A program made the position numbers and the translations under genes. From the NCBI GenBank assembly GCA_018402075.1, contig JAGYJP010000002.1, forward strand, positions 62,001 through 126,000: DNA of 64,000 nucleotides, given 5' to 3'. Below are positions 23,009 through 60,400 of the stretch, piece after piece (position 1 is the stretch's first letter; each line of letters opens with the position of its first letter). This DNA comes from Candidatus Nanopelagicales bacterium. GTDB taxonomy: Bacteria > Actinomycetota > Actinomycetes > S36-B12. A model generated the notes under the pieces. That model ran no database searches and had not been told where the DNA came from. It worked only from the letters and a program-made list of their open reading frames with translations.

Positions 23009-23009
23009 T
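23004..23009 (+). promoter_or_regulatory. -10 box of a leaderless promoter
   Basis: TACACT lies 6 bases before the ATG at 23016 and shares bases with the operator. Confidence 0.6.
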
Positions 23010-23015
23010 TGAACT

Positions 23016-23282
23016 ATGCCAACACTTCGACCGAGAATTCAAGTGACGGAGACCTCGGAATTGACGCAAGCTCTCGCTATTGCGGAGGAGCTGTGGCCTG
23101 GGGAGTCAAAGTCTTCCCGGGTGTGCCGCTTGGCGGCCCTCGGCGCGGAATCTGCCATTGAGCGGCGCTTTGCTCAGACTCTGGAGAGGCAGCAAGCCAT
23201 TGCGGAATTGCAGCGCGAATTGGGTGACACTTTTGCCGGACTGACTTTGAAAGAAGTGCGGGCCGCGTGGGATCGGGATTAG
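23016..23282 (+). CDS. Antitoxin of a PIN-toxin pair, no named family recognised
   Basis: An 88-residue protein. Residues 1-45 (including TLRPRIQVTETSELTQALA and ESKSSRVCRLAALGAESAIERR) have the strand-helix-helix outline of ribbon-helix-helix repressors, and the last 40 residues are helical and charged, as antitoxin tails are. The identification rests on context: a perfect operator at the promoter, a 16-base overlap with a PIN toxin gene, and small size. It is not related in sequence to the AbrB-type antitoxin next door. Confidence 0.7.
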   Translation: MPTLRPRIQVTETSELTQALAIAEELWPGESKSSRVCRLAALGAESAIERRFAQTLERQQAIAELQRELGDTFAGLTLKEVRAAWDRD

Positions 23283-23662
23283 TACTTGATGCGAGTGCGT
23301 TTATTGCTTTGCTTAATCCCCGAGACGCGCACCACGCCGACTCGATAGATCTCGCAGGGGCGCCAGTTTGGGATCGGGGTTTATTTCTCCACGAAGTCTC
23401 CCTTGCAGAATGTCTGGTTGGGGCGACAAGCGCGGATTCAGTGGATCTCATGATTCGTGAAATCGAACGAATAAAAATTCAAGTTGTAGATTCGAGGGGT
23501 ATAGGCGGTGCGCAGCGAATTGCAGCACTAAGACAACAAACCAGGTGCTCGCTGCCCGACTGCTACGTACTTGACGGCGCCTTAGAAGAAAACTTGACCC
23601 TTGGGACTTTTGATCAACGAATGCTCGCTGCGGCAAAAAAGTTGGGTATTGGCCTGCCCTAG
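23267..23662 (+). CDS. vapC: PIN-domain toxin, second module
   Basis: This 131-residue PIN domain carries Asp8 (VLDASAFIALL), Glu48 (LAECLVG), Asp98 (LPDCYVL) and Asp116 (TFDQRM), a complete catalytic set for a VapC-type RNase. The GTG start overlaps the antitoxin gene by 16 bases. Its sequence differs from the first toxin, so the two modules are not a recent duplication. The 3' end overlaps the convergent aldehyde dehydrogenase-like gene by four bases. Confidence 0.85.
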   Translation: MGSGLVLDASAFIALLNPRDAHHADSIDLAGAPVWDRGLFLHEVSLAECLVGATSADSVDLMIREIERIKIQVVDSRGIGGAQRIAALRQQTRCSLPDCYVLDGALEENLTLGTFDQRMLAAAKKLGIGLP

Positions 23663-26985: not shown

Positions 26986-27255
26986 CTATCGATAAACAGC
27001 CCGGCGATGACCGATGCGAAGAATGAGAACGAGGAAAACTTCATCTTCGAAGTGAGCAATGAGCCGGTAGTCACCTACCCGAAACCTCCATAAGCCAGCG
27101 AAGGCATCTCCAGCAAGTGGTTCGGCAAGGGACCGTGGATCTGTGCTGGGCTCTATTCGTTCAGAAAGAAAGCGGAGAATTCGCTCTCGTGCTGGGCGGT
27201 CTAGTCGCTGGAACTCTTTCTGTGCACGACGGTCGAACTCAATCTGCCAGGTCAT
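26986..27255 (-). CDS. relE: RelE/ParE-superfamily toxin
   Basis: An 89-residue protein with the RelE fold: MTWQIEFDRRAQKEFQRLD at the start, GLWRFRVGDYRLIAHF in the middle and the ending ILRIGHRRAVYR, where basic and Tyr residues act in ribosome-dependent mRNA cleavage. It overlaps the upstream antitoxin gene by 17 bases. Such toxins slow translation under stress. It stands 66 bases beyond the deoC start. Confidence 0.92.
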   Translation of the reverse strand: MTWQIEFDRRAQKEFQRLDRPARERILRFLSERIEPSTDPRSLAEPLAGDAFAGLWRFRVGDYRLIAHFEDEVFLVLILRIGHRRAVYR

Positions 27256-42492: not shown

Positions 42493-43469
42493 GTGCACTG
42501 CCCAGCGTTGCAATAGTGATGCCTATTCTCAATGAAGAAAAGCACATTGCACAGGCAATTGATCGATTGCTGGAGCAGGATTACCAAGGAAGTATGTCGA
42601 TTGTGATTGCGGTGGGCCCTAGCCGCGATCGCACAACTGAGGTTGTCGATTTATTAGTCGCACAACACTCGCAGGTGATTCGAGTGGATAATTCCAGTGG
42701 CCGAACTCCATCGGGGCTCAACGCAGCCATCGCAGCAACAGATGCTGAGGTGATTGTCCGAGTGGATGGGCATGCACTCGTCCCTTCCGATTATGTTCGT
42801 CGCGGTGTGGAAACACTCATGCGCACGGGAGCAGACAACGTGGGCGGCATCATGGATGCTGAAGGAGTCACACCATTTCAACGTGCCGTTGCCGCCGCCA
42901 TGACATCAAAGTTTGGGGTCGGCGGTGCCGCATTTCATGTGGGGGGCCAAGAAGGTGAAGCCCTCACCGTGTATCTGGGCTGTTTTCGCAGGAGTGCACT
43001 TGATCGAGTAGGCGGATACGACGAATCCATGATTCGCGCCCAAGACTGGGAAATGAACTACCGCATTCGTGACACGGGTGGAACCGTGTGGTTTACCCCC
43101 GACATGCGAGTGCGCTACCGCCCTCGGTCTACTCCTGCGGCATTGGCTCGACAATATTTTGGTTATGGAACATGGCGCCGCGAAGTTGCCCGGCGTTACC
43201 CCAACACTATTTCCATGCGCTATCTCGCAGCGCCCGTCATGGTGCTTTCTGTGTTCATTGGGGTTGTTCTTGTTATTGCCGGGTTAATTGCCGGTTCAGC
43301 CATTCTCAGCCTGATTGGACTCATCCCCGTAGCACTTTATGGTGCGGGTGTGTTGTTGGCCAGTGTGAGGACGGGACGCGGGGTCACCAAACTCCTGCTG
43401 CTGCTTGTGTTTCCCATCATGCATTTTTCGTGGGGAACGGGTTTTCTTCTTGGACGGGCGCGGTCATAG
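42489..43469 (+). CDS. ExoA-like family 2 glycosyltransferase with C-terminal membrane helices
   Basis: A 326-residue protein with an N-terminal family 2 domain (VAIVMPILNEEKHIAQAI, VRVDGHALVPSDYVRRGVE for the metal motif, and SMIRAQDWEMNYRIRDTGG) and three hydrophobic segments after residue 245 that anchor it. The arrangement matches succinoglycan ExoA and similar enzymes that extend lipid-linked oligosaccharides at the inner face. The GTG start overlaps the previous stop by four bases. Confidence 0.85.
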   Translation: MSALPSVAIVMPILNEEKHIAQAIDRLLEQDYQGSMSIVIAVGPSRDRTTEVVDLLVAQHSQVIRVDNSSGRTPSGLNAAIAATDAEVIVRVDGHALVPSDYVRRGVETLMRTGADNVGGIMDAEGVTPFQRAVAAAMTSKFGVGGAAFHVGGQEGEALTVYLGCFRRSALDRVGGYDESMIRAQDWEMNYRIRDTGGTVWFTPDMRVRYRPRSTPAALARQYFGYGTWRREVARRYPNTISMRYLAAPVMVLSVFIGVVLVIAGLIAGSAILSLIGLIPVALYGAGVLLASVRTGRGVTKLLLLLVFPIMHFSWGTGFLLGRARS

Positions 43470-43471
43470 CC

Positions 43472-44386
43472 ATGTCACTTTTCACAAGAAAGAAAAAGGG
43501 CAAGTGGGCAATAGTGACATCGGCTCCCAAGGGTGAAGCCGGACGCCAGTGGGGTGATTACTGGTTTGCCCAGGATTTGGCGGATGCCTTAATCCACGAA
43601 GGAGTGGACGCAACCGTCCATTCACGTGCGGGTGCGCAGTCACCTGCTCGGGATGACGACGATGTCGTCGTGGTGTTACGCGGACTTCGTCGAGTTGTGC
43701 CCAGCAATGACACGGCGAAGTGGTTTCTCTGGGTGATTTCGCACCCGGAACTCGTGGAACCGGGTGAAGCAGATCAGTACACCGCTGCATTCGCTGCGAG
43801 CGAATTGTGGAATCCCGGTGGGGATTTAGGAACATTTGCGCCGTTACTGCAGGCGACAAATGTGGATCGATTCCGTCCAGTTGCTGCACCCGAGAATTCC
43901 GGAGTGTTATTTGTTGGTTCCACTCGCGGGGAGTTTCGTCCGATTGTTCGCGATGCCCTGTCCCAAGGAATCCCGCTGTCGCTCTACGGTGTGGGGTGGT
44001 CCGATTTCGTTGACCCGTCTGTGATCAGTGGCGAGTTTCTCGACAACTCACAATTGCCCGCAGCGTATTCCAACTCAGCGTTAGTGCTCAACGATCACCA
44101 TGCAGACATGGCGGCGAATGGTTTTCTTTCTAATCGACTTTTCGATGCCGTTGCAGCGGGTGCCCGAGTGGTGAGTGATCCGGCAACGGGGTTGGCGAGT
44201 GTTTTTGGTTCCAGCGTGGTGGAGTATCAATCACCCGAGCACCTTGCCCAGATTGTTGCCGATCCGGATTCCTTCTTTCCTGATTCCACAGCTGAGCGTG
44301 AGCGAATTCGTCGTGAACACAGCTTCACGGCACGGGCCCGCTATTTGATTGAGCAGGCCCAGTCAGATGGAGCAGGCGCGTCATGA
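43472..44386 (+). CDS. Glycosyltransferase with CgeB-like C-terminal domain
   Basis: A 304-residue soluble protein, with the late segment LVLNDHHADMAANGFLSNRLFDAVAAGARVVSD that matches the donor-binding half of GT-B glycosyltransferases of the CgeB/Glyco_trans_1_2 kind. The N-terminal 100 residues begin KKKGKWAIVTSAPKGEAG and carry no clear signature. The open frame reaches back to 43088, but those residues lie in the previous gene; ATG 43472, two bases after it, is chosen. It overlaps the next gene by four bases. Confidence 0.75.
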   Translation: MSLFTRKKKGKWAIVTSAPKGEAGRQWGDYWFAQDLADALIHEGVDATVHSRAGAQSPARDDDDVVVVLRGLRRVVPSNDTAKWFLWVISHPELVEPGEADQYTAAFAASELWNPGGDLGTFAPLLQATNVDRFRPVAAPENSGVLFVGSTRGEFRPIVRDALSQGIPLSLYGVGWSDFVDPSVISGEFLDNSQLPAAYSNSALVLNDHHADMAANGFLSNRLFDAVAAGARVVSDPATGLASVFGSSVVEYQSPEHLAQIVADPDSFFPDSTAERERIRREHSFTARARYLIEQAQSDGAGAS

Positions 44387-46473
44387 TTGATGTCTCCGTC
44401 ATTCTCATTGGGTACAACGATTCCCGTCGCCTGCCCGCTGCGTTGGCGTCCATTCAGCAGCAATCCTTGCGAAATATCCAGATCATTGCGGTGGACGATC
44501 ACTCGACCGACAACTCCATGGAGATTTTGCAGGCTGCAGCACGTACTGATCCGCGAATTCACGTGGTGCAGTTACCGATAAATTCGGGCGGGTGCAGTGC
44601 ACCGCGTAACAGGGGTCTTGAATCTGCCACAGGTGAGTTCGTCATGTTTTGTGACTCTGATGACACGCTGGACCCACACGCATGCCGCAATTTGGTCACC
44701 GCCGCTCGGAACATGCAGGCCGATGTGGTTGTGGGGGCGGCGGAACGATTCTTGGTGGACACGGGTGAGAAGAAGATCTGGTGGCCAGAGCTTCATTCCG
44801 ATTCACGGGTAGTCGAAAAACTCAGTGACTGCACCGATTTGCTGTATGACACCATTTCTGTGAATAAAATTTACCGTCGAGATTTTTTGCGCGATCACTC
44901 GATCACCTTTCCCGAGGGATTACTTTTTGAGGATCAACTCTTTACGCTGGAGGCGTATCTCGCGGCCACAAGAATCGGGATAATCGCTGAAGTTGTGTAT
45001 CACTGGAATGTGCTTCGCGGAGACACCTCGCAATCGATAACCCAATCCCGCAAGGAACTGCGCAACCTGAATGATCGAATTGAAATCAACAGGCGCATGG
45101 ATCAACTACTTATTGCTCATCCACAGATCGCCATGGCCAAACACATTAAGTTCCTTCGCCATGAAGGTTCGTTGTATCTCACCACCATCTTTGAGGCGGA
45201 TCCCGAGACTGCACTAGCGCTTGCGCAGGTTCTGGCAGGTTATTGCCGCTCGATCCCTGCGGCCGCTTACGGCGAGATACGTCCAGGCCTGCGAATTGCA
45301 ATGTATTACCTGCTGCTCGGAGATCACGACAGCTTGATCACCAGCCTATGGTGGGAAAAAGGGGGAGGAGTCGTTGCCACTGCACTCGAGTTCACCTCGA
45401 GTGACAAAACCTCGAGTGACAAAACCTCGAGTGGCAAAACCTCGAGTGGCACGGTGCTCTGGCGGCCCGCGCGTGGTGAGTGCTTAGGCCAGGCCGAGCA
45501 ATGGTGGCGCGATGCAACTGCCTTGCACCTTCCATTGATTCCACCAGGTCGTCGCCGTTATCTGCATTCGTGGCAAAGTGGTAACACGGTTGTGACAGTG
45601 GATCCTTTCGGAGATCTCGACAACAACACCACCGCTGAATTGATTTTTGTGGAACACCGCAATGGCGCCCTGGCTGCTATGCCCTTGAATTTTGTATCGC
45701 GCAGCGAAGACAGAGTCACGTGGGAGTTGGATCGTGGTTCGCTGGCTCTCATTCAAGATCGTGGCATTAACCCTGGTGAGTCCGGGACCGTGGTCGTGGA
45801 AATGCAGGAGAGCCACGGTCATTGGCGTAACCGAAGTGCCGTCACGGATCGCGAGGGTGTGCATGCAGGTTCATCATTGGACCTCAGCTCATTAGCAAGT
45901 TTCGATTGCGCTGATTCACTTGTGCTGGCTACAACCCCGCAAGGAACGCTGATCTGGTCAGCATCAGGAACATCAAAGAGTTTTGGCTCGGTAGTGAGGA
46001 AATTCCGACGCAAAATTGCTCCCGGCTTTACCCAGCGTCCAGCCATATTCGATACAGCCACTGATCGACCAATATTCCTTTACGCACCCGCGCCGCTTCC
46101 TGACTTTGACTCCAGGCTTACTCGGTTTGACACCCAGGCGTGGATAAATGAATTTGGAACTGATGCCTATCTGCTCATTCCGCAGGAGTCATTTACACCT
46201 GCACCGGCCCGATTCAGTTACGCGTATCGCACCTACTCGCCACAACGTTTATCCGCAGCTAAGTCGGTAGCGACTTATGTCATTACGGATCAACCGGCAC
46301 TGGTGGATTCTGACAGCGCAATTGGGTTTAGACAGGATCTCGGTCCGGCTCGATACCTGCTGCCGCCGCTCAACACCACGGTGTTGCGCGCCCAGGTATT
46401 GCAGACAACCCAAGAACTCCATGCCCGGGTGCGCCACCTTCTTGACCAGAGCAACTCGGGTGGTACGCCATGA
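44383..46473 (+). CDS. Family 2 glycosyltransferase with large C-terminal region
   Basis: A 696-residue protein. Residues 1 to about 230 are a classic family 2 domain: VSVILIGYNDSRRLPAALASIQQQ, IAVDDHSTDNSMEIL, NSGGCSAPRNRGLE and the metal motif FCDSDDTLDPHACR. Residues about 230-330 are helical, followed by a variable segment with a tandem TSSDK/TSSGK repeat (about residues 338-357) and 330 residues without a recognised family that are rich in beta-strand patterns, as carbohydrate-binding modules are. It may be a polymerase of the surface glycan, which is inference. The ATG overlaps the previous stop by four bases. Confidence 0.8.
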   Translation: MIDVSVILIGYNDSRRLPAALASIQQQSLRNIQIIAVDDHSTDNSMEILQAAARTDPRIHVVQLPINSGGCSAPRNRGLESATGEFVMFCDSDDTLDPHACRNLVTAARNMQADVVVGAAERFLVDTGEKKIWWPELHSDSRVVEKLSDCTDLLYDTISVNKIYRRDFLRDHSITFPEGLLFEDQLFTLEAYLAATRIGIIAEVVYHWNVLRGDTSQSITQSRKELRNLNDRIEINRRMDQLLIAHPQIAMAKHIKFLRHEGSLYLTTIFEADPETALALAQVLAGYCRSIPAAAYGEIRPGLRIAMYYLLLGDHDSLITSLWWEKGGGVVATALEFTSSDKTSSDKTSSGKTSSGTVLWRPARGECLGQAEQWWRDATALHLPLIPPGRRRYLHSWQSGNTVVTVDPFGDLDNNTTAELIFVEHRNGALAAMPLNFVSRSEDRVTWELDRGSLALIQDRGINPGESGTVVVEMQESHGHWRNRSAVTDREGVHAGSSLDLSSLASFDCADSLVLATTPQGTLIWSASGTSKSFGSVVRKFRRKIAPGFTQRPAIFDTATDRPIFLYAPAPLPDFDSRLTRFDTQAWINEFGTDAYLLIPQESFTPAPARFSYAYRTYSPQRLSAAKSVATYVITDQPALVDSDSAIGFRQDLGPARYLLPPLNTTVLRAQVLQTTQELHARVRHLLDQSNSGGTP
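45394..45453 (+). repeat. 15-bp tandem repeat (four units) in a glycosyltransferase gene
   Basis: Units at 45394, 45409, 45424 and 45439 read ACCTCGAGTGACAAA or the variant with GGC. They are in frame and encode TSSDK, TSSDK, TSSGK, TSSGT. Units 1 and 2 are identical; 3 and 4 differ by single bases. Confidence 0.9.
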
Positions 46474-47561
46474 GCACCTATGTGATCACCGCAAACAACA
46501 TTGCCGAACTCGGCGGAGCCCAGAATGTTGCCCACACACTGGCTCGAGGTTTGGCATCCCGCGGTCACGCCGTGTACCTGGTGGGGATCACTCCGGTTAC
46601 TGAGCCACACACGTACACGCCCTCGCACCCTGATGAGGCCTACACCTCGCTGACATTGATGCCACAGATCTGGCCGGAGAAAACCAGCACCAATGGTGAT
46701 CTGCGCGCGAACCTTCGTGCCCACGCTGTGTCAGAGATGCAAACACTCCTGCAATCCCTGGGCAGCGCGAATATTGTGGCAACGCAACTGTGGTCATTAG
46801 AAATTGTTCTCGATGCCCTGGGCGGCCCGAACCTCAACTTCCCAGTTATTGGCCAGTACCACGGCTCCTTTGCGGCCGCTGCCGGCGGACGTGATCTTCG
46901 CCGAGCACAGAAGTCGGCGGGCGCCTGTGATTATTTTGCCGTGCTCAGTCGCGAAGATGCCCAAGCATTTGCCGCGGCTGGCCTGACAAATGTGATCTAT
47001 GTGCCCAATCCGATCACTCTTACTGCTCGCCAGTTCAATGCTGCGTTGGCATCTCGTCCAGGACAGACCTCTGTGCACATGATCGATTTTGTGGGGCGGC
47101 TCTCCGAGGAAAAGGGTCCTGATCTTCTTCTGGACGCATGGGAAATCAATCGTCCTCCGGGCGTGACACTTCGCCTAACCGGTAGCGGACCTATGGAGTC
47201 TGAACTCATTAATCGTCATGTGGAAGGCGTGGAATTCCACCCACCGGTCACAGATGTGGCGCCGCTTATTGCCCAATCACGAGTTGTGGTGATTCCCTCT
47301 CGCACCGAGGGTGCTCCGCTGGTACTTGCGGAGGCATTAGCTCTTGGGGTACCCGTTGTTGTCACGGATGTCTCTTCGGGAATCCGTGAAATGGTGGCTA
47401 ACAATTCCCGAGCTATGTTGGTGGAAAGCGAAAACGCACAGGCGCTCTCGCACGGCATTTTGCAGGCGCTTTTACTATCACCCGATCCGGAACCGACTTT
47501 GCCTGATGACTCCCATATCTATTCACAATGGGAAAAATTGTTCGCTACAGATGCGAATTAG
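46470..47561 (+). CDS. Family 4 glycosyltransferase (GT-B)
   Basis: A 363-residue retaining glycosyltransferase. The N-terminal half has NIAELGGAQNVAHTLARGLASRG, the acceptor side loop, and the C-terminal half has the FVGRLSEEKGPDLLLDAW segment and the EX7E motif in EGAPLVLAEALALGVPVV, which binds the nucleotide sugar. The donor is unknown. The ATG overlaps the previous gene by four bases. Its 3' end overlaps the convergent nucleotidyltransferase gene by 17 bases. Confidence 0.88.
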   Translation: MSTYVITANNIAELGGAQNVAHTLARGLASRGHAVYLVGITPVTEPHTYTPSHPDEAYTSLTLMPQIWPEKTSTNGDLRANLRAHAVSEMQTLLQSLGSANIVATQLWSLEIVLDALGGPNLNFPVIGQYHGSFAAAAGGRDLRRAQKSAGACDYFAVLSREDAQAFAAAGLTNVIYVPNPITLTARQFNAALASRPGQTSVHMIDFVGRLSEEKGPDLLLDAWEINRPPGVTLRLTGSGPMESELINRHVEGVEFHPPVTDVAPLIAQSRVVVIPSRTEGAPLVLAEALALGVPVVVTDVSSGIREMVANNSRAMLVESENAQALSHGILQALLLSPDPEPTLPDDSHIYSQWEKLFATDAN

Positions 47562-49510: not shown

Positions 49511-49527
49511 CGACAAGAGGTGTCATC

Positions 49528-49533
49528 TAATGT
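49528..49533 (+). promoter_or_regulatory. -10 box of a leaderless promoter
   Basis: TAATGT lies 7 bases before the GTG at 49541; the in-frame GTG at 49520 precedes the box and is rejected. The divergent box at 49505 is only 18 bases away. Confidence 0.5.
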
Positions 49534-49540
49534 AAACGCC

Positions 49541-50314
49541 GTGCGCGTCCTTTGGGAGCACCGTCAAGTGCTCCGCATGCTGGTCTTACGAGACCTGCAA
49601 CGCCAATACACGAAATTCAGGCTTGGCTACCTCTGGTCCTTACTCGAGCCCCTTGGCATGGCGCTGGTGCTCTGGCTGGTCTTTTCTGTCCTTTTGGGCG
49701 AAAGAGCACTTGGTTTGCAGCCGTACCTCCTGTTCTTGTCTGTAGCGATTTTGCCCTGGTGGTGGTTTCTCAAAAGCGTTCAGGCTTCCACCAAAATCTT
49801 CCGGCGCATGAGGGGTGAAATTGCCTTCTCGGGGCTTCCGCTACAAATTTGGGTTTTGCGTACCGTTATTTCCTCCATGGTGGAATTTATTTTCTCCCTC
49901 CCCGTGATCTTGATCGCCGTTGCGGTCACAGGTTTCCTTCCAGGGCCGTGGATTGCGTTATTCCCTGTTGCTATCGCACTTCAGTTCCTCTTGCTTTACG
50001 GCATCGGATTGTTGGTGGCATCACTCAGTGTTGTTGCACCAGATGTCACTCGAGTTGTCAAAATAATTCTCCGAGCAATGTTCTACCTGTCACCGATTTT
50101 GTATTCCATTTCCAACATCCCTGCCAGTGTCCAACCTATTGCTGCGCTTAATCCACTGGTGGGAATTTTGGGGCTATATCGGATTGGCTGGTGGCCAGAA
50201 GAACAGACCTCCGCCTGGGCGCTGGTTACTTCCCTAGCCGTAGCTGCTGCATTCCTTATTGCAGGTCTGATCACATTTAAAGTTCTCAAGCCCAGAATTT
50301 TGAAGGAGGCGTGA
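49541..50314 (+). CDS. wzm: ABC-2 type polysaccharide export permease
   Basis: A 257-residue membrane protein with six hydrophobic helices, typical of Wzm/TagG permeases: an N-terminal amphipathic LRDLQRQYTKFRLGYLWSLLEP segment, and a later SPILYSISNIPASVQPIAALNPL. Such proteins export teichoic acid or O-antigen-type polymers across the membrane with an ATPase partner. The next gene fills the partner's position but its ATPase motifs are eroded. ABC-2 assignment is firm; the polymer is unknown. Confidence 0.92.
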   Translation: MRVLWEHRQVLRMLVLRDLQRQYTKFRLGYLWSLLEPLGMALVLWLVFSVLLGERALGLQPYLLFLSVAILPWWWFLKSVQASTKIFRRMRGEIAFSGLPLQIWVLRTVISSMVEFIFSLPVILIAVAVTGFLPGPWIALFPVAIALQFLLLYGIGLLVASLSVVAPDVTRVVKIILRAMFYLSPILYSISNIPASVQPIAALNPLVGILGLYRIGWWPEEQTSAWALVTSLAVAAAFLIAGLITFKVLKPRILKEA

Positions 50315-51069
50315 TGGAAAACATTCTTGAGTTCAGTCATGTCTCACTCACCATGTCCCAAACCAAGCGTCGCTCAGGTGCGGGGAAGTCTAAGCGTTTA
50401 CGTCGATTTGCGGGGGAAACCAAACGCCAGGTAATCCCCGTTGTCAACGATCTCTCATTTACCGTGCAGCCGGGACAATCAATTGCACTCGTTGGTGGCC
50501 GAACACTTGCTCGCACATCAATTCTCAGATTGGCCGCAGGCACGTTAATTTCGGATTCGGGCACAGTGTCACGGACTGAGCCGATTGTTCCCATGATTGG
50601 TATTGCCCGAGCACTGGGTCGCGGGTACACCGTTCGGCAAAATATTTATCTCGTGTGCGGACTCCTCGGTCTTTCCCCTGAACAAGTGGAACAACGAATC
50701 CCGCAGATCACAGAATTCGCTGACCTGAAAAATATATTGGACCGACACTTGGGTGTTGCACCAGCAAGTACGCGACAAAAGTTGGCGTGGAGCATCGCTA
50801 TGTCACTTGATGCCCGTTTCTATGCCGTTGATCAGACTTTGGTGGTTGGCGAGCGTGATTTCCGCCAAAAGTGTTGGACTCATGTGGATCAACTGCGTGA
50901 GCAGGGTGCAACATTCATCATCTCTGCGGACAACTCCAAGGTCTACCGACGATTCTGTGATCGCGCACTGTATTTCAGTCAGGGCAAACTTGAAGCCGAC
51001 ACCACCGTGGCTGAAGCTCTTTCCTTGGCGCGCAAGGCTCGGCATGCGGCGCGAGAAACTGAGGATTGA
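50314..51069 (+). CDS. Wzt-position ABC domain with all catalytic motifs degenerate
   Basis: A 251-residue protein with the overall fold of a Wzt/TagH ATPase, positioned directly after wzm. The motifs that catalyse ATP hydrolysis have changed: the Walker A position reads GGRTLARTS (Arg67 for Lys, Ala66 for Gly), the signature GG is APASTRQ, the Walker B ends in AVDQTLVVG (Gln174 for the catalytic Glu) and the H-loop His is Ala205 in ISADNS. The flanking fold-defining positions, including VVGERDF and CDRALYFSQGKLEAD, are preserved, so it is an intact protein, not a frameshifted remnant. ATG 50314 lies 4 bases after AAGGAGG; GTG 50311 is 1 base after it. It may act as a structural partner, or another ATPase drives export. 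Confidence 0.85.
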   Translation: MENILEFSHVSLTMSQTKRRSGAGKSKRLRRFAGETKRQVIPVVNDLSFTVQPGQSIALVGGRTLARTSILRLAAGTLISDSGTVSRTEPIVPMIGIARALGRGYTVRQNIYLVCGLLGLSPEQVEQRIPQITEFADLKNILDRHLGVAPASTRQKLAWSIAMSLDARFYAVDQTLVVGERDFRQKCWTHVDQLREQGATFIISADNSKVYRRFCDRALYFSQGKLEADTTVAEALSLARKARHAARETED

Positions 51070-51098
51070 CGTAGCCGCATATGCGTGTGCGCGCCGAT

Positions 51099-51104
51099 TA
51101 GGCT
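51099..51104 (+). promoter_or_regulatory. -10 box of a leaderless promoter
   Basis: TAGGCT lies 7 bases before the ATG at 51112. Confidence 0.5.
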
Positions 51105-51111
51105 TGCCCCC

Positions 51112-52281
51112 ATGGTGAATGAATCACAGGCCGGGCTCGGCCCTGCGATTTCACCCATTGCCTCGGACGGTGTACTCCTACATATCGGGGTCCACAAGAC
51201 CGGCACCACGGCCATTCAAGCCGCTCTTGCCGATGCTCGCGAACCTCTGGTTGAGCACGGGGTGCGATATCCGGGCAAGTTGCAGGCCCAGCACCGCGCT
51301 GCTCTTGCGGTCCTAGGTCGCCCTTGGGGTTGGAATACCCGAGGCGGTGGCGTTCTTGACCGCGAGCACTTTGATCGCCTGGCCAAACGAACTGCGCAGG
51401 CGCCAGGGCGGGTGGTGATCAGCAGTGAGTTTTTCTGCGAAGCGCCCGAAGACACGGCGGTGGAAGTTATTCGAGACCTTCGGGGTAGGTCCAATCGCCC
51501 GGTGCAGGTGGTTGTGACTTTGCGCAATTTGGGCAAATTATTACCTTCATCGTGGCAGCAGTATTTGAAGTACGGGCTTACCACTCCTTATGACAAGTGG
51601 CTCGAAGATGTTTTCGCCACACCGGGAAGTTCAAAAATGACACCTACTTTTTGGAAGCGGCACGATCACGGCGATGTTGTGCGTAGGTGGTCTCGTGCAG
51701 TGGGTCCAGAAAATTTATCGGTACTCATTCTTGAAGATGTTCCCCGGGATTTTGTCTTCCGCTCATTTGCGCAGTACCTCGGCGTCCCTGAAGAAATTCT
51801 GACCAGTCGAATGGACCTCACCAGCAATCGCTCCATGACAGCGGCTGAAGCTGAAGTATTAGTGCGGCTCAATAAGCGCGTGAAGAAATCCATGCAATGG
51901 GGAGACTATGTTCGCCTCGTTCGTAGGGGAGTGGCCCTGGGCATGGTGGAGGGCCGTGAGCCTACTGAAATCGAGGTGAAGCTCTTCACTCCGCAGTGGG
52001 CACTAGATGCAGCGCAGCAGGCGGGCGAGAAATCCGCCAATGCAATCATCGAATCTGGTGTCACCGTTTTGGGAAATGTGGATGCCTTGCGGGTTGGTCT
52101 AGCCAGCGGTGAGCAGCCGCAGGAAACTGATTCACTTCCCATCGATGCTGCGGTACAAGCACTGGTCTCGGTTATTCAGGCATCTGGTGAGAGTCCCACC
52201 TCACGCGAATTAGCCGGTCGTCTGGTTCGCCAAACTAAAAAAGATGGTATTCGCTCTCTCTGGCGAAAGAATTCCGAGTGA
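51112..52281 (+). CDS. Sulfotransferase-like protein
   Basis: A 389-residue protein whose residues about 20-45 read LLHIGVHKTGTTAIQAAL, the P-loop that binds the 5'-phosphosulfate of PAPS in sulfotransferases, and which later has VVVTLRNLGKLLPSSWQQYLKYG where a 3'-phosphate loop with Arg and Ser is expected. The C-terminal 130 residues are without assignment. It may sulfate the surface glycan or a related lipid, which is inference from the neighbourhood. It begins the operon that includes the two CDP-alcohol phosphotransferase genes and overlaps the next gene by four bases. Confidence 0.75.
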   Translation: MVNESQAGLGPAISPIASDGVLLHIGVHKTGTTAIQAALADAREPLVEHGVRYPGKLQAQHRAALAVLGRPWGWNTRGGGVLDREHFDRLAKRTAQAPGRVVISSEFFCEAPEDTAVEVIRDLRGRSNRPVQVVVTLRNLGKLLPSSWQQYLKYGLTTPYDKWLEDVFATPGSSKMTPTFWKRHDHGDVVRRWSRAVGPENLSVLILEDVPRDFVFRSFAQYLGVPEEILTSRMDLTSNRSMTAAEAEVLVRLNKRVKKSMQWGDYVRLVRRGVALGMVEGREPTEIEVKLFTPQWALDAAQQAGEKSANAIIESGVTVLGNVDALRVGLASGEQPQETDSLPIDAAVQALVSVIQASGESPTSRELAGRLVRQTKKDGIRSLWRKNSE

Positions 52282-53993
52282 CGTTCACTCTTGCCCTGCA
52301 AGGGGACACCGCCGCCGAACAAATCGACAGTGTGGTGGCAGCGCTTGGCGAATCTGAAGACGATCTCGTCATTATTTCTGGGGATCTAGTGATCAACCCT
52401 GCGGTACTAGCTTCGGTCACTGAGAATCCCTTCGCCGGTACCTGTGCCGCTGTTCGTAGATCGCGGGACGGAAACCTGCGAGTGCTTCACCACCATCTTG
52501 TGGCTGCTGGTACCTCCTTTCACACAGTGAACTCCACAAATGCCGTGAGTGTGGGAGCGCTGCGATTGGCTCGTCGCGATCATGCGCGCATACTCCCGGT
52601 GCTGACATCACTCTTGGATTTCGTGTTCGATCAACAAGATGTAAAGCCAGATGAGTCACTGGAACTAATCATTACGGCACTGCTTCGGGCGCAGATTCAG
52701 GTGAAAGAAGTCGAAATTATCGATGCTCCGTGGTTTCGCTCACCACAGGATCTTGACATGGCGAATCACGAAGTTTTTTCGATAAAGGAAACAACCATTC
52801 GGCGGTTACAGGCAAACCGAATAGACGATGGATTCTACTCGACATTCGTTGTTCGCAAACTTTCCAAGCCACTTACCGGGTTAGCCATTCGCTGGGGGCT
52901 CAGCCCCAATGCAATAACTCTGATTTCATTTGTCGTCGGTTTGCTCGCGGCCGCGTCATTTGCTGCAGGAAATAAATGGTTCCTTGTACTCGGGGCAATC
53001 TTGCTTCAATTCTCGCTCGTCATTGATTGTGTTGACGGGGAAGTTGCCCGAGCAACACGACGCTTTTCCACTCTCGGTGCGTGGCTAGACGCCTCTACCG
53101 ATCGGGTCAAGGAATATGCGGCGTATGCGGGCCTAGCCGCTGGTGCCGTTGTCATGGGTGTTGACTCGTGGCGAGCATGGAGTTTGGCTTTGATTCTCAT
53201 GGTGGTGCAAACAGCGCGCCACATGGGTGATTACAACTTTGCCGCCATTCAACGGATTCGCGAAATTGGTCTGCCATTCGCTGCGATTAATGATCCCCAA
53301 GATCCCTGGGGTTCGCAGTCGGGTGCTATTGCTCTTTCCACGCAGATCAATAGTCGCCCGATTATTCGATGGGCGAAGAAAGTCATTCATATGCCCATTG
53401 GTGAGCGCTGGCTTGTACTCAGTGTGGTGGCGATCATCTTCAACGGATATTGGGCGCTACTTGCGTTATTGATATTGACATCTTTCGCCTGGCTTTACAC
53501 ATTGGTGGGTCGGGTACTTCGCACATTGCGCTGGTCACATGAACCCGCGGGAGTGGAGTTGATTGCGGATCAACTTGATTTTGGTCCACTCCTAGGTTCA
53601 TTAGCCTCGCGCATCAATGTGTTGCCAACATCCCGGTGGAACTGGTCGTTTCCCATGTTGCTTCGGATTATCGAAATGGGACTGGTGGCGGCTATTGCCA
53701 TATACGCCTATCCGCAATGGGAAACATTGGCATTTGGCTACCTATTCATTATTGCTTTTCATCACTATGACAACCTGTATCGAGCATTGGGTGGAACGCA
53801 AGCACCTCGCTGGATCACGTGGTCAGCTCTGGGAGTGGACGGTCGCACATTGATCATTGTGGTTGCCGGCCTCCTTGGCATTACCGCATTCCATGACACC
53901 CTTAATCTCGGAGTAGCGTGGTTGTTCATGTGGTGCGTGGTAATCGCGTCGGTTCAGTACCTAGGTGCGCAAAAGAAGGTGGAGTTGCTGTGA
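52278..53993 (+). CDS. CDP-alcohol phosphotransferase with N-terminal nucleotidyltransferase-like region and C-terminal DUF5941-like region
   Basis: A 571-residue protein. The central membrane domain holds the complete CDP-alcohol phosphatidyltransferase motif: D250-x2-D253-G-x2-A-R-x8-G267-x3-D271-x3-D275. The first about 165 residues resemble a nucleotidyltransferase core (SGDLVINPAVLASV) but lack the N-terminal GxGxR loop, so NTP binding is doubtful. The C-terminal third adds further helices like DUF5941. Similar fusions of a nucleotidyltransferase with a CDP-alcohol phosphotransferase make inositol phosphodiesters in other organisms; here a phospholipid or wall polyol is possible. GTG start overlaps the previous stop by four bases. 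Confidence 0.75.
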   Translation: MTFTLALQGDTAAEQIDSVVAALGESEDDLVIISGDLVINPAVLASVTENPFAGTCAAVRRSRDGNLRVLHHHLVAAGTSFHTVNSTNAVSVGALRLARRDHARILPVLTSLLDFVFDQQDVKPDESLELIITALLRAQIQVKEVEIIDAPWFRSPQDLDMANHEVFSIKETTIRRLQANRIDDGFYSTFVVRKLSKPLTGLAIRWGLSPNAITLISFVVGLLAAASFAAGNKWFLVLGAILLQFSLVIDCVDGEVARATRRFSTLGAWLDASTDRVKEYAAYAGLAAGAVVMGVDSWRAWSLALILMVVQTARHMGDYNFAAIQRIREIGLPFAAINDPQDPWGSQSGAIALSTQINSRPIIRWAKKVIHMPIGERWLVLSVVAIIFNGYWALLALLILTSFAWLYTLVGRVLRTLRWSHEPAGVELIADQLDFGPLLGSLASRINVLPTSRWNWSFPMLLRIIEMGLVAAIAIYAYPQWETLAFGYLFIIAFHHYDNLYRALGGTQAPRWITWSALGVDGRTLIIVVAGLLGITAFHDTLNLGVAWLFMWCVVIASVQYLGAQKKVELL

Positions 53994-54796
53994 GTAGTCA
54001 ATCTCAACCGAAATCGCATCCGACCATTGCGCAAATCCGCGAGGTGTGTCAACCGCCATCTGTGCGTGGCCGTAAAAATTCCGAGCACTGGGTTGCAGAT
54101 GTGTATCTACGCGATCTTTCTCCCTACCTCACCAGCCTTTTACTGCGAACACCAATCACCGCGAATGGCGTGACCTATCTCATGATTTTGACCGGCGCAT
54201 TGGCCGGAGTGGTCTTGCTGATTCCTGGCATGCCCGGTGCAACGCTCGCACTCATCTTGGGACAAATGCAAATGTTGTGGGATTGCTCTGACGGTGAGGT
54301 GGCACGCTGGCGCAAAACATCGTCCCCTAAAGGCGTTTTTCTTGATCGAGTTGGGCATTATGTTGCGGAAAGCATCATTCCTTTGGCATTAGGTCTACGT
54401 GCAGCGGGATTCCCCGAAGCAGGGTGGCTTGATACTCCGTGGCCGCTGATTGGTGCGTTGCTCGCGCTGATCATCATGTTCAACAAGGCTCTCAATGACA
54501 TGGTGCACGTATCGCGTGCATACAACAACATGCCACGACTTGAGGACAGAGAGAGTGTGGGTGTTCCCACCGTCGGTGCGGTGCGCAAACTCCGCTCCCT
54601 TGCCCGCCTCTTTCCCTTCCAGCGTGCATATCACTCGGTTGAGCTCACCATTTTGATTTTCCTGGCGGCTGTAGGTGACCTCTTCACAGGTGATCTCAGT
54701 GTCACGCGATTCCTTCTAGCGGCGTTAACCGTACTGGGTGTTGTCACGATTATTGGCCACTTCATTTCGATCATGACATCGAGCAAATTGCGGTGA
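53990..54796 (+). CDS. CDP-alcohol phosphotransferase with His in place of the fourth Asp
   Basis: A 268-residue membrane protein. The CDP-alcohol phosphotransferase motif starts D98-x2-D101-G-x2-A-R-x8-G115-x3-D119, but the last position, normally the catalytic Asp, is His123 in LDRVGHYVAE. It could act with His as base, or be inactive as a partner of the preceding protein. Several helices flank the motif. GGTGGAG lies 5 bases before GTG 53990, which overlaps the previous stop; the longer in-frame start at 53918 would lie inside that gene. Confidence 0.78.
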   Translation: MSSQSQPKSHPTIAQIREVCQPPSVRGRKNSEHWVADVYLRDLSPYLTSLLLRTPITANGVTYLMILTGALAGVVLLIPGMPGATLALILGQMQMLWDCSDGEVARWRKTSSPKGVFLDRVGHYVAESIIPLALGLRAAGFPEAGWLDTPWPLIGALLALIIMFNKALNDMVHVSRAYNNMPRLEDRESVGVPTVGAVRKLRSLARLFPFQRAYHSVELTILIFLAAVGDLFTGDLSVTRFLLAALTVLGVVTIIGHFISIMTSSKLR

Positions 54797-55653
54797 CCAG
54801 TTTCGGTGTGGTCATTTTGACCATGGGTTCTCGACCTGCCGAGTTACGTCGAGGAATTGAATCAGTTCTTGCCCAGCAGGCAGTGACCACTGACATTGTG
54901 GTTGTCGGCAATGGTTGGTCACCGACGGATCTCCCTTCCGGGGTCAAGGCGCTTGCGCTTTCAGAGAATGTCGGAATTCCCGCTGGGCGCAATGCTGGAG
55001 TGCACCAAGTGAAGGGCGATTATCTATTTTTCCTCGATGACGATGCCGAGTTACCGTCACCAGATTTCCTTGCCCGCATCTCGCATATTTTCCAGCAACA
55101 TCCTGAGGTCGGCTTGATTCAACCGCGAGTGGTGGATCCCACGGGTGTTCCCGGTCCCGGTCGTTGGGTACCTCGATTGCGCACAGGTGATCCCAGCACC
55201 TCCAGTCCAGCAACAACCTTGTGGGAGGGAGCAACTGCCATTCGCCCCGAAGTATTTGTGGCGTGCGGTGGGTGGCCCGAAGAATTCTTCTACGCCCATG
55301 AAGGAATCGATCTAGTGTGGCGGGTGTGGGACGCAGGTTACCTTCCCTGGTACGCCGGTGACATTGATGTGTATCACCCGGTGATCAACCCGCTGCGGCA
55401 TGAAGAGTTCTTCCGCATGCAAGCACGCAACCGCGTGTGGTTAGCTCGCAGAAATCTTCCTGTGGTTCTCGAGCCGCTGTATATCGGAACGTGGTCGGCA
55501 CTCACTCTTGCACGAACGCGAGATAAGAAGTCACGACAGGCATACATTGCGGGCTTGCGTGAAGGATTTACCGTCGCACCAAATGATCGCTCACCCATGA
55601 AGTGGTCCACCGTGTGGAAAATGACTAAAGCTGGCCGACCGCCAATAATCTAG
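54793..55653 (+). CDS. Family 2 glycosyltransferase
   Basis: A 286-residue glycosyltransferase, cytosolic, of the rhamnosyl/galactofuranosyl-type family 2: FGVVILTMGSRPAELRRGI, NVGIPAGRNAGVHQVKGDYLFFLDDDAELPSPDFL for the metal motif, and FFYAHEGIDLVWRVWDAGY in the acceptor region. The operon position after the CDP-alcohol phosphotransferases suggests it adds sugar to their product. The GTG overlaps the previous stop by four bases. Convergent to the LCP gene with 18 bases between stops. Confidence 0.88.
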   Translation: MTSFGVVILTMGSRPAELRRGIESVLAQQAVTTDIVVVGNGWSPTDLPSGVKALALSENVGIPAGRNAGVHQVKGDYLFFLDDDAELPSPDFLARISHIFQQHPEVGLIQPRVVDPTGVPGPGRWVPRLRTGDPSTSSPATTLWEGATAIRPEVFVACGGWPEEFFYAHEGIDLVWRVWDAGYLPWYAGDIDVYHPVINPLRHEEFFRMQARNRVWLARRNLPVVLEPLYIGTWSALTLARTRDKKSRQAYIAGLREGFTVAPNDRSPMKWSTVWKMTKAGRPPII

Positions 55654-55684
55654 CTCGCGCAGGTTTCGACACTAGCTCGCGCAG
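55650..55684. repeat. 13-bp direct repeat spanning two convergent stop codons
   Basis: CTAGCTCGCGCAG occurs at 55650-55662 and 55672-55684. The first copy contains the glycosyltransferase stop and the second the LCP stop on the opposite strand. It looks like a short duplication of the LCP end. Confidence 0.7.
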
Positions 55685-57276
55685 AAACTCTCCTCGGCGG
55701 TATTCACATTCGCCGTTTTATCCTTGAGCGCTTCACTGATCGTGACCGGTTTCGCCACGGTGAAGTCAGGTCCAATTATCAATTGCATGGTGGAGCCATT
55801 GCCCTTTTGTGTTTCTTGGATTGTGACGCCGGCTGAGTATGCAATTGTTTTGGCGGAGACATCCCAACCAGGGTCATAAATAAGAGTTGTTTGAGCGACG
55901 GTAGGTCCCTTCTTGACATTGACGACATTAAAGCCCTCGGAGCGAAGCTCCTTCTTGGCTTTCTTTCCGGCACCCTTGACTCCTGTGCCATTTACGATTT
56001 CTACGCGGATGTCTTGTGGAGCTGTGCGAAGTAGGGGTTGATCATTGGCGGCCTTTGGTGGCCAGGGTGTGTCTTTGATCATTGAGCGGAAGAGTGGCTT
56101 GGCCTTCTTTTTGTTCATCAGGACGTTTGCGCCATCGCCCGCGGGGTACCACGGCAAAGTGGTGAAAGTAATGTCACCGGGACGTAAGTCCTTCATGCTC
56201 ACCGCGAGTTCGCGCAGGTTGTCAATATTGGCAAGCTGGGGATCGGCGGTGAGGGATTCGGTCGCGGCATTGAGTACACCGAGAAGGGATGCGGGGTTGA
56301 GCAATGTTCCACTGGAAAGAACCTGGCGCGCCATGGAGGAAAGGAATGCCTGTTGCCGGCGAATGCGGGAAGTATCAGAACCATCGCCCAAGGTTTTACG
56401 GGCACGAACAAATGCAAGTGCTTGCTCGCCAGAAACCATATGTGTACCGGCGTCCAGCTTTAATCCGCTCAGAGGGTCATTTACGGGTTCGCTCAAGCAG
56501 ATTTCCACCCCACCAATAGCCTCGGTGATTCGTTTGAAGGCACCGAAGTCAATAACCATGAAGTTATCAATTGTCATTCCTGACATTTCTTCGACGGCCT
56601 TTAGGGTGCAGCCGGGGCCGCCTATTGTCATTGCTTCATTGAACTTGCCGGTGCCACCTCCAACCGTCTTGCCCTTGACCTTGCATTTGGGCAAAGTGAT
56701 CAAGGTGTCGCGGGGAATGCTGACCGCGGTAGCCGCTGATCGATCGGCGTTCACATGCAACAAGATGGTGGTGTCTGAGCGCTCGGAAGTTCCAAATTCG
56801 GCGGCGCTGCCGTATCCCCGGTTGTCTTTACCTACCCGGGAGTCACTTCCCATGAGCAGAACATTAAAAGGAGCGGTTTCCCCAGTTTCTTCATCGATGA
56901 CAACCGAATCGGTGCTCTCGATTGTTGAGCCAGTCTGCTCGGAGACATCGAGTGCGGTGATATTGCCTTCAAGTTGATTCAGGACCGCGGTAGCTCCCGC
57001 CCCCACCGCGGTGACGGCCAGAATCGCACCGCTGGTGGTCGCTGCAACCACTCGGGGCCAACGTTTAGCACTCACTGAATCGAATATTCCTTCGGCAGTA
57101 GTGGGGAAGTGCCGCTCGGGATGATTGGCATCTCTGTATGCGAACTCCCATAGTAAGCGGATCCTTTTGAGGTCAGAGGTATGACGCACCCGAAATCCGG
57201 ATAGTTCCGTTGCCAGAGTTTGGCCAATATTTTGGCGCAATCCCCGGAAATACGGGCTTTTCATGGATTTTGACAT
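55672..57276 (-). CDS. LytR-CpsA-Psr wall-polymer transferase with LytR_C domain
   Basis: A 534-residue membrane-anchored protein. A single membrane helix (near residue 85, VVAATTSGAILAVTAVGAG) follows a cytoplasmic head, and the LCP domain includes NVLLMGSDSRVGKD, SDTTILLHVNAD, VSIPRDTLI and EAIGGVEICL. The C-terminal LytR_C domain begins DIRVEIVNGTGVKGAG. LCP proteins transfer polyprenyl-linked glycopolymers to peptidoglycan outside the membrane, so this is the natural last step for the polymer made by the neighbouring genes. The start ATG 57276 lacks a clear ribosome site. Confidence 0.92.
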   Translation of the reverse strand: MSKSMKSPYFRGLRQNIGQTLATELSGFRVRHTSDLKRIRLLWEFAYRDANHPERHFPTTAEGIFDSVSAKRWPRVVAATTSGAILAVTAVGAGATAVLNQLEGNITALDVSEQTGSTIESTDSVVIDEETGETAPFNVLLMGSDSRVGKDNRGYGSAAEFGTSERSDTTILLHVNADRSAATAVSIPRDTLITLPKCKVKGKTVGGGTGKFNEAMTIGGPGCTLKAVEEMSGMTIDNFMVIDFGAFKRITEAIGGVEICLSEPVNDPLSGLKLDAGTHMVSGEQALAFVRARKTLGDGSDTSRIRRQQAFLSSMARQVLSSGTLLNPASLLGVLNAATESLTADPQLANIDNLRELAVSMKDLRPGDITFTTLPWYPAGDGANVLMNKKKAKPLFRSMIKDTPWPPKAANDQPLLRTAPQDIRVEIVNGTGVKGAGKKAKKELRSEGFNVVNVKKGPTVAQTTLIYDPGWDVSAKTIAYSAGVTIQETQKGNGSTMQLIIGPDFTVAKPVTISEALKDKTANVNTAEESFCAS

Positions 57277-57406: not shown

Positions 57407-60400
57407 GTGCTTTTTCCCCAAGGCATGAAGCCCCGGTTCATCCTGCCCGCGATCCTGATCGTGGCGGGCTCCCTAATCCTTCCCGTGGCCGGTTCGGATC
57501 TCCTTACCAGCGATTCCTCTAAGCCTCGACCTTCTGATTCTCAACTTCTTGGTAATCAGACTCTTGGTTCCCCCACTCTTGATTCCCGCTCCGATGCTCA
57601 ACTCTCTCCCTACACCGAGCAACGGATCCCACTTCAGGGAATCGATCCGAATGTTGTCACCGCAGGCCAAGCCGCCATGGTCAACTACGAGGCCTTATTG
57701 GATGGCGCCATCATCACCGATGCCCTCTATCGACCTGAGGACACGGAATCCGCAATTGCTCACGCTGATCATGATGCTCACGCTGATCATGATGCTCACG
57801 CTGATCATGATGCTCACGCTGATCATGATGCTCACGCTGATCATGATGCTCACGCTGATCATGATGCTCACGCTGATCATGATGCTCACGCTGATCATGA
57901 TGCTCACGCTGATCATGATGCTCACGCTGATCATGATGCTCACGCTGACGAAGTCTCAGCTGATCTCGAACCCGTCATTGCAACTCGCAGCGCACAGACA
58001 AAGCCGTTCACGTTGGTGGGAATCAGCGCCGCGCAACCATTTGATGAAGGTTCACAGGTTGTAGTTCGGGTTAAAGAAGAAGACGGCTGGACAGAATGGG
58101 CGCCATTGCCCATTAGTGAGCATCTTCCCGATGCCGATGAAGCTGTCGGCATTGTCTATGGAACAGAGCCGTTGTTAACCAGTGAGGCAACGGGAGTTGA
58201 AGTCCGCATTGATACTCCCGGAGGAAGCGAACCGGTTAACCCTGAAGTTGTATTACTTGATGCACCGGTGATTGATTCCGACTCTGATCTTCCAGATCCA
58301 GGAGAGGGATTCACCCCGATAAGCGCCGTGGCAGCGAGTACCGTGAGCGCACCGATGCCGCTGATCATCACCCGCGACCAATGGGGTGCCAATGAATCCC
58401 AAACTCGTTTGGGACCGAAATATGCCCCCACCATTAAAGCGGCCTTCGTTCATCACACGGCCTCCCGAAACGACTACTCGCCCGAGCAATCGGCTGCCCA
58501 AGTGCGCAACCTTTACAACTGGTTCACCAAGGGCCTGAAGTACTCGGACATGGCATACAACTTTTTGGTGGATCGTTATGGCCGTCTGTACGAAGGTCGT
58601 GGGGGTGGCGTTGATAAGGCTGTAGTCGGCGGCCACACCGCAGGTTTCAATGATCAAACTTTTGCAGTGTCGGCAATTGGTAATTTCCAAAAACTTAAGC
58701 CGAATGAGCCAGAGATGACTGCAATTGTTGATTCGATGTCTTCCTTGCTTGCCTGGAAGCTGTCCATGAACCATCGGGATCCCAATGGCCAAACAACACT
58801 TGTATCTGACTCTGCCGCGGGTACCTCACGCTATAAGCCGGGGCAAACAGCGACTGCCAGTGTCGTTGGTGGGCATGGCGATATTGGATCGACGTCGTGC
58901 CCGGGTCGCTATCTGGAAGAACAATTACCTGCTATTCGCGCAGCTGCGGGCGCCAAAATGGGCGCGAGCATGATTAATCCTGCGGCGGCGCCCGCATCGT
59001 GGGGAACACAAACTCCCGTGCGAATTGGCGCGGTGACAAATGCGCCACTTCAATGGAATCTCACCTTGCGCTCCCAATGTGGCGACGTGGTTCGGACCCT
59101 GAGCGGAGCCCAAGAAGCTCCGGGGGCCATGTCCATTGACTGGGATATGCGCAATGACGCTGGCCAGCCAGTTCCTCCCGGCACCTACTCCATCACCATG
59201 AATTCCACCGGAAACGGTGAACCGTTGTACCCATGGTTCGGGCAGGCACAAGTTCTTGCGACGTCAGAATCGCCACCAGATCCATGTGCACCTCCGGCAA
59301 CTTTTACCCTGAGTGGGTCGGGATTTGGTCACGGAGTGGGGCTATCCCAGTGGGGTGCTCGCGCAATGGCGACAGCAGGAATGGATGCACCGTCCATCCT
59401 TCGCTACTACTATCAAAATACGGAAGTCGTTCCCGTCCAAGATGATATGGAAATCTCCGCCAATATCGAATACCAAAAAGTTCGCATTGACATGAGAAGT
59501 GAAGCCTTAGATCCCTCCGGCGGCGCACTGGAAGTTTCCGTGGGTGGCGTGGTGTATCAGGGGTCACCATCAGATGTCTTCCAATTCCAGCGCTCCGGGT
59601 CACAGGTTCGAGTGGTTCGTATCGCGGGTGGATCCCAAAGCGTTATTGGCGAAGGGCCAAATGCGACTGCAAGACCGCTGGGCGCGACCCTGGTGCAAGT
59701 TGTAAACAAAGGACGCAGTCTTTCTACTTCCGGGAGTCGTTTCCGTTATGGATTCATCGAGGTAACCCCCGTGACCTCTGGGGGCAAGAATTTACTTAAT
59801 GCGGTCAACAAACTTCGGTTACACGAGGAGTATTTGTACGGAATCGCAGAAGTCCCGAGTTCGTGGCCGGATGCCGCACTTCAGGCACAAGCAATTGCGG
59901 CGCGCACATACGCCTTATCCAAAATCAACTCAGGAATTAGAGCGAGTTGTAATTGTCATGTTGACGATGGGTACGGACCATTTACCGATCAGACATTTGT
60001 CGGGTGGTCCAAGCAGTCAGCTGCACAGGGTGATCGTTGGGTGAATGCCGTCAATGCAACATTGGCTTCTCCCAACACCGGACTCGCAGTCCTGCATGCA
60101 GGCCAACCGATCAGGGCGTTTTACTCCGCATCCAATGGCGGTGCTAGTCAAGCCAGTGCGGATGTGTGGGGTGGCGCACTGCCGTATGTCGTGTCGGTAC
60201 CTGATCCGTATTCACTGGATCCGGCAAACCCTGACAGTTCATGGACAAAAACACTCACCCAAGATGAAGTAGCTCGAGCCTTCGGTGTCAGCGGCGTGTG
60301 GGCACTGAACGTGACGGAGCGCCATGGATCTGGTGCGGTGAAAACAATTGCCGCAACTTTGGCGGACAGCACCATTGTCACGAAATCTGGGGGCGAAATG

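Follow-up and report, generated by a model that had tools for sequence, protein, structure and literature searches.

A conserved Wzt orthologue without a recognisable ATP site in Candidatus Nanopelagicales

How a cycle of ATP hydrolysis moves a long polymer through WzmWzt or TarGH is an unsettled question, and the known exporters of this kind do hydrolyse ATP, as described in PMC7078476 and PMC9445017. The window analysed here, a stretch of 64,000 nucleotides from a Candidatus Nanopelagicales bacterium (contig JAGYJP010000002.1), encodes in the position of Wzt an ABC protein whose ATP site can no longer be recognised, and it raises the question of what such a subunit does beneath its membrane partner. 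A natural lineage possessing the channel and the gate but no ATP site separates both roles and may show what is enough for docking and for gating.

The gene of this protein, hereafter pseudo-Wzt (50314-51069, forward strand; P0001), is an open frame of 251 codons plus a stop. Its ATG overlaps by one base the TGA of wzm (50312-50314, giving TGATG), and the direct reading of the DNA places a ribosome-binding-like AAGGAGG ahead of it (50303-50309, forward strand). The product matches Pfam ABC_tran at 26.2 bits, barely over the cut-off of 25, and in NCBIfam the top models, TagH and the galactan Wzt, score far under their cut-offs; the mycobacterial Wzm-Wzt is a galactan exporter. Among PDB chains, hmmsearch best matched 6m96 (2e-44) and 7k2t (8e-44), and the AF2 model (pLDDT 90.1) predicts an ABC nucleotide-binding domain (NBD) nearest to Wzt/TagH in Foldseek and VIA-align comparisons. 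The sequence-only reading of this stretch, namely an ABC ATPase in the Wzt position whose gene is intact and coupled to wzm, is thus borne out by the open frame, the overlap and the retained fold.

Aligning the protein to intact Wzts (32 rows, 31 of them distinct) located the remains of the ATP site, all on the forward strand. In the former Walker A (residues 61-69, GGRTLARTS; 50494-50520), Ala66-Arg67-Thr68 replaces the GKS of intact Wzts, while in the former signature motif (residues 149-153, APAST; 50758-50772), which is followed by a conserved RQ (154-155), SSGM has become Pro150-Ala-Ser-Thr153. The former Walker B (residues 169-174, FYAVDQ; 50818-50835) retains Asp173 and has Gln174 in place of the catalytic glutamate, and the former H-loop position is occupied by Asp206 (50929-50931). 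Arg67, Ala66 and Gln174 had been correctly read beforehand, but the lost H-loop histidine had been placed at Ala205, one residue too early. Likewise, the signature had rightly been called lost, although not through several missing glycines, intact Wzts carrying a single one (SSGM in 31 of the 32 rows, STGM in the other). Walker A, signature, catalytic glutamate and H-loop histidine of a working ABC ATPase are hence all absent. To judge from its sequence, the protein is a member of the Wzt/TagH NBD family by descent without the features of a working ABC ATPase, and we infer from the motif loss that it does not use ATP.

Are these losses peculiar to one copy? The search with pseudo-Wzt gave 250 protein matches, the best 120 of which all had E < 1e-74, and motifs were tallied in 172 degenerate rows comprising 121 database proteins (query included) and 51 locus proteins identical to none of them, near-identical rows being retained. 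The Walker A lysine (position 67) is present in 0/172 of these rows, the signature glycine (152) in 3/172, the catalytic glutamate (174) in 8/172 and the H-loop histidine (206) in 45/172, versus 32/32 intact rows for each of the four. Loss is thus complete for the lysine and almost so for the signature, with glutamate and histidine surviving in a few branches; since 117 of the 172 homologous rows lack all four residues, the motif loss in the window protein is not due to chance. The initial reading proposed to check whether the substitutions are conserved in close homologues, and the losses are indeed shared by relatives. Had nearby genomes carried normal motifs, this copy would have been taken for a decaying gene, but the near kin (L001, L002 and L003) are all degenerate and normal motifs are seen again solely in less closely related genomes of the order and the class. 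In three loci (L075, L076 and L077, from G104, G099 and G103, respectively), the H-loop histidine is present (SSHGGKH) and the other three features (Walker A, signature and catalytic glutamate) are gone, suggesting that the losses were stepwise or that one residue was regained. In another subclade (L101-L104 and L133-L136), the former Walker A has one inserted residue and no P-loop pattern, and most of these loci have a different neighbour beside pseudo-Wzt (cluster c21, 294-297 aa, opposite strand).

That every catalytic motif has changed would suit a decaying pseudogene, a possibility that we consider negligible and reject on the grounds of dN/dS and conservation. Indeed, the frame is intact, with its ribosome-site-like sequence and its overlap with wzm, and dN/dS (Nei-Gojobori) lies between 0.040 and 0.135 in ten out of ten degenerate pairs computed and between 0.042 and 0.075 in three intact pairs, dS being near saturation (1.09-1.80, hence above 1) in two degenerate and two intact pairs. 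R19, R20, R31, R72 and W159 are among the positions invariant in 54 thinned degenerate rows. Pseudo-Wzt is therefore not decaying but strongly conserved. This conservation is unevenly distributed: 12 positions of the ATP site have a mean entropy of 1.80 bits in degenerate versus 0.02 in intact rows, and the loop of the gate helix goes in the opposite direction (1.07 versus 2.12). Furthermore, few stretches of the protein vary more than the Walker A loop, 96% of windows of the same length being equally or more conserved. These figures also bear on whether the site might still bind nucleotide in an unusual manner, with Arg67 for the lysine and without normal catalysis. An arginine at the lysine position in 158/172 rows and Asp173 in 139/172 would fit such binding; however, the variability of the Walker A loop, the replaced signature and the branch whose former Walker A has an extra residue and lacks a P-loop pattern make it very improbable.

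Regarding the gate helix, it is described in PMC6379404 as an insertion between strands 1 and 2 which in WzmWzt forms an electropositive pocket, the proposed substrate site. By this definition, the insertion is present in the model of pseudo-Wzt (strands 5-19 and 36-51, helix 25-32), and the corresponding loop (residues 17-38; 50362-50427, forward strand) is basic and conserved. The net charge of residues 15-40 has a mean of +9.0 (range 5-10) in degenerate rows and is 3-7 in 28/32 intact rows, with intact outliers including -1, 10 and 10, so that both sets overlap at the top. As few stretches of pseudo-Wzt are better conserved than the gate-helix loop, in contrast to the ATP site, a substrate-binding or gating role, one of the options initially envisaged, is favoured by these sequence comparisons.

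How widespread is this protein? In the order Candidatus Nanopelagicales, to which genome G002 belongs, 54 of the 166 genomes reach 247-457 bits as their best score with the family profile. In G106, the 55th, the match is a fragment of 79 positions at the edge of a contig (127 bits). The intact relatives score 184-198 bits (G007, G012 and G124-G130), and none of the other genomes of the order exceeds 150 bits. Beyond the order, in searches that scored six first-look candidates per genome and could miss a weak extra homologue, a class-wide sample of 394 genomes gave ten scores above 245 bits, all from genomes already in the order list, with intact Wzts elsewhere reaching up to 201 bits, and in a phylum-wide sample of 396 genomes only G002 itself passed E 1e-62. 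In these samples, the family is restricted to one order (55/166 genomes), and the titles of L002 and L003 name Candidatus Nanopelagicales. One cluster (P0043) bears an Alphaproteobacteria name in its source, presumably that of a mis-binned contig, and G112 has a second, partial copy on another contig (G112:C253:3910-4404; 166 aa, 198 bits), perhaps a duplicate or a contaminant.

In an 86-row tree, all 54 degenerate rows (one from the window and 53 from other genomes, leaving out the degenerate fragments of G037 and G106 and second fragments of G074 and G112) lie on one side of a single branch with SH-aLRT 100, adjoining class-wide and acI-like intact orthologues. The clade persists with SH-aLRT 99 after removal of the motif and gate-helix columns, and a grouping driven by the motifs is thus rejected; both trees are quick searches with SH-aLRT support only, and a very long stem leads to the degenerate rows (2.05 changes per column), which calls for a long-branch warning at that point. 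Intact acI-like copies in L089, L091, L092 and L094 occupy the same locus as the degenerate ones, in the order purK, glycosyltransferase, wzm, wzt, CDP-alcohol phosphotransferase, GT2, LCP and manC; we read L089-L095 as acI from their small genomes (0.8-1.3 Mb). As these orthologues stand in the same locus, the ATP site was probably lost in place and not via an added second gene. The whole lineage of inactive partners imagined at the outset hence does exist, as one monophyletic and strongly constrained family that we file as a variant of the Wzm/Wzt (type V) exporter. In searches of the open-licence PMC literature, none of the titles or abstracts listed describes this family.

The membrane partner has stayed normal. 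The window's wzm (49520-50314, forward strand; PF01061, 52.8 bits) encodes a type V ABC-2 membrane subunit whose AF2 model (pLDDT 84.8) matches WzmWzt, TarGH and KpsM chains, with a TM-score of 0.79-0.87 (by query) to Wzm/TarG chains. A Wzm lies upstream on the same strand for 51 of 54 distinct pseudo-Wzt sequences, that is, for all 51 having upstream sequence, the three loci where none is visible (L071, L083 and L122) being within 108 bases of the locus end. Both frames are spaced by -3 to +7 bases in 44/51 cases, and the longer overlap in seven loci arises from ORF calling at the earliest start. In a tally covering ORFs of 201 to 419 aa, which left out L133 and several over-extended ORFs, the equivalents of LG-loop L35, G36, W39 and P44 are present in 47/47 aligned Wzm rows of the clade. 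The TM5 aspartate, probably equivalent to Asp167 by position and motif, is present in 46/47 rows, the last one having an unread letter. Such pairing in the genomes suggests that pseudo-Wzt binds Wzm.

The surrounding genes hint at what this pair may handle. Upstream on the forward strand are four glycosyltransferase-like genes (42489-43469, 43088-44386, 44383-46473 and 46470-47561), the first of which has NCBIfam matches under cut-off and membrane segments recognised by eye. They are followed on the reverse strand by genes for a nucleotidyltransferase (PF12804; 47545-48237) and a CDP-glycerol:poly(glycerophosphate) transferase-like protein (PF04464; 48247-49506), both assigned by Pfam and synteny. 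Downstream of pseudo-Wzt, the forward strand encodes a conserved protein of 51085-52281, recognised by synteny and without Pfam or NCBIfam match, whose HKTGTT motif we take to be sulfotransferase-like. Then come a CDP-alcohol phosphotransferase with an N-terminal extension and DUF5941 (PF01066; 52278-53993), a second CDP-alcohol phosphotransferase (PF01066, also by synteny; 53918-54796, with its true start probably downstream of 53918) and a family 2 glycosyltransferase (Pfam and synteny; 54793-55653), before a LytR-CpsA-Psr (LCP) ligase on the reverse strand (PF03816 plus LytR_C, and synteny; 55672-57276). Together, the glycosyltransferases, the poly(glycerophosphate) transferase-like protein, the CDP-alcohol phosphotransferases and the LCP ligase suggest a phosphate-containing wall glycopolymer; judged from these genes, the substrate may thus be a teichoic-acid-like, phosphate-containing and lipid-linked wall polymer. 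Some subclades apparently lack part of this gene set. The locus also encodes a SpoIID-domain protein of 1242 aa containing a perfect 18-base tandem repeat (57757-57948; 10.7 copies, 100% match) which encodes (DAHADH)n, a His/Asp-rich stretch. Close to purK, and some 12 kb upstream of wzm, lies the gene of a GtrA-family membrane protein (PF04138; 36937-37464); GtrA proteins are candidate flippases for lipid-linked sugars. Farther away, at 22268-23662 and 26986-27255, are genes resembling toxin-antitoxin systems: a PIN-domain protein accompanied by a MazE-type antitoxin, another PIN-domain protein preceded by a small ORF, and a ParE-like toxin. An anti-phage role was set aside, PADLOC giving no match.

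If pseudo-Wzt does not hydrolyse ATP, another ATPase might. An intact ATPase could act in trans, a multitask NBD of another ABC system replacing pseudo-Wzt or pairing with it under Wzm. Shared ABC ATPases such as MsmX have been described, heterodimers with one dead site are reported as common (PMC7756269), and G002 and G070 have 46 and 50 ABC_tran matches, any of which could possibly serve. A search for a second, intact Wzt had been proposed from the sequence, and we ran it in the 55 degenerate-clade genomes with an intact-Wzt profile, scoring at most 48 first-look candidates per genome, which could pass over a weak extra homologue. Its outcome is split. Another Wzt is found in 35/55 genomes (33 above 220 bits, one in G070 at 189 bits and a contig-end fragment in G044), while for 20 nothing listed scores more than 122 bits apart from the degenerate locus itself (G002, G003, G036, G038, G047, G064, G065, G066, G067, G068, G071, G073, G074, G082, G085, G099, G104, G106, G107 and G109). 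Among the other-Wzt loci read, 36/39 have an adjacent Wzm of their own, the remaining three ending at the Wzt; all 39 have the Walker A GKS, with no signature recognised by pattern in L228, and L230 is cut short. In G002, each of four ABC2_membrane genes adjoins an ABC ATPase gene, and pseudo-Wzt alone among these four neighbour ATPases missed PF00005 at 1e-6. Three candidates for a second Wzt were discarded: G002 C18, the best non-degenerate TagH-model match of its genome, adjoined by an ABC-2-like membrane ORF, and G003 C2, the next best in its own, are by eye peptidase-fused ABC ATPases, and G070 C3:712261 has its own Wzm. Export by another Wzt ATPase, another initial proposal, is hence unlikely as a general rule. 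On the evidence of this Wzt search, a multitask ATPase in trans also appears improbable, since a further Wzt match is missing from 20 genomes (the near kin G002 and G003 included), the other Wzts mostly have a Wzm of their own and pseudo-Wzt would need to pair with a distant NBD.

Alternatively, the pair may not be an exporter but a membrane scaffold or regulator which binds the lipid-linked precursor and organises the wall-polymer enzymes, another flippase moving the polymer. We searched 16 of the 55 degenerate-clade genomes and four intact ones for Wzx-like proteins (PF01943, 1e-5). Matches, weak at 27-48 bits, occur in 12/16 degenerate-clade genomes (11 over cut-off) and in 1/4 intact genomes; G002, G047, G068 and G073 have none at this threshold. 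A Pfam rescan covering L231, L233, L235, L236 and L239 of ten such loci (L232, L234, L237, L238 and L240 being left out) found Polysacc_synt in 3/4 degenerate-clade proteins, the exception being that of G003, and in the intact-genome one. These matches speak for a scaffold, as does the conserved gate helix, which would fit precursor binding without transport. Against it stand the four genomes without match, the absence of any Wzx-type flippase among the Pfam-scanned ORFs of the window's locus and the invariance of translocation-linked LG-loop and TM5 residues of Wzm, which a scaffold would not obviously need. We therefore regard a scaffold as rather unlikely, if worth keeping in mind.

The reading that we tentatively prefer, at slightly less than an even chance, is that of a retained Wzt/TarH orthologue, a pseudo-ATPase subunit that gates the channel and docks the substrate in a type V exporter which is not driven by its own ATP hydrolysis. 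ATP binding and hydrolysis would have been lost once, early in one Candidatus Nanopelagicales lineage, and the protein retained as a pseudo-ATPase docking beneath the normal Wzm dimer. At the mouth of the channel, its basic gate helix would hold a lipid-linked wall polymer, probably an anionic one, by its pyrophosphate end, and the subunit may gate or orient the Wzm channel. WzmWzt is described as forming a continuous channel without nucleotide (PMC6379404; PMC9445017), and it is suggested in PMC6379404 that membrane potential helps to reorient UndPP, with its anionic head group outward. The exporter could likewise be held in a channel-like state and translocate without its own ATP hydrolysis, the likely pull coming from the membrane potential on an anionic substrate, polymer synthesis in the cytosol and irreversible LCP ligation outside. 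Several findings run against this preferred reading: the characterised exporters of this type hydrolyse ATP, the PF01943 matches offer the polymer another possible route out, the losses are non-uniform (histidine 206 and glutamate 174 persisting in some rows), the gate charge overlaps that of intact rows and another Wzt exists in 35 genomes. A bolder version, possible but doubtful, is that of an ABC exporter which gave up ATP altogether in one lineage of aquatic Actinobacteria. Wzm and two pseudo-NBDs would form a gated channel through which membrane potential, synthesis and ligation outside drive a polyanionic wall polymer linked to lipid. If polymer still passes, an ABC transporter would have become passive or potential-driven; the lineage also bears on the cell wall of an abundant order of aquatic bacteria.

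Finally, how does pseudo-Wzt compare with known systems? In the O antigen ABC transporter WzmWzt of Aquifex aeolicus (PDB 6m96, 7k2t, 8dne and 8dl0), Wzt is the ATPase, whereas the window protein lacks the Walker A lysine, the signature, the catalytic glutamate and the H-loop histidine and is too short, at 251 residues, to include a C-terminal carbohydrate-binding domain. The glutamine found in 6m96 at the position of the catalytic glutamate comes from a Walker B mutation of the construct, as stated in PMC6379404. TarGH, the wall teichoic acid flippase (9cfl from S. aureus, 6jbh from A. herbarius), is reported to hydrolyse ATP (PMC7078476), in contrast to pseudo-Wzt and its unrecognisable site. 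Heterodimeric ABC exporters with one degenerate site likewise keep, for structure, an NBD whose catalytic motifs are lost; they are described as retaining one canonical site (PMC7756269), whereas in the pseudo-Wzt complex every site would be dead if it is a homodimer, no intact partner being apparent. Wzm-Wzt of Mycobacterium abscessus (9qfx to 9qhx) is likewise an actinobacterial type V exporter with the same folds and, unlike what is predicted for pseudo-Wzt, it binds nucleotide, both the wild-type and the E178Q proteins having been solved with ATP according to the structure titles.
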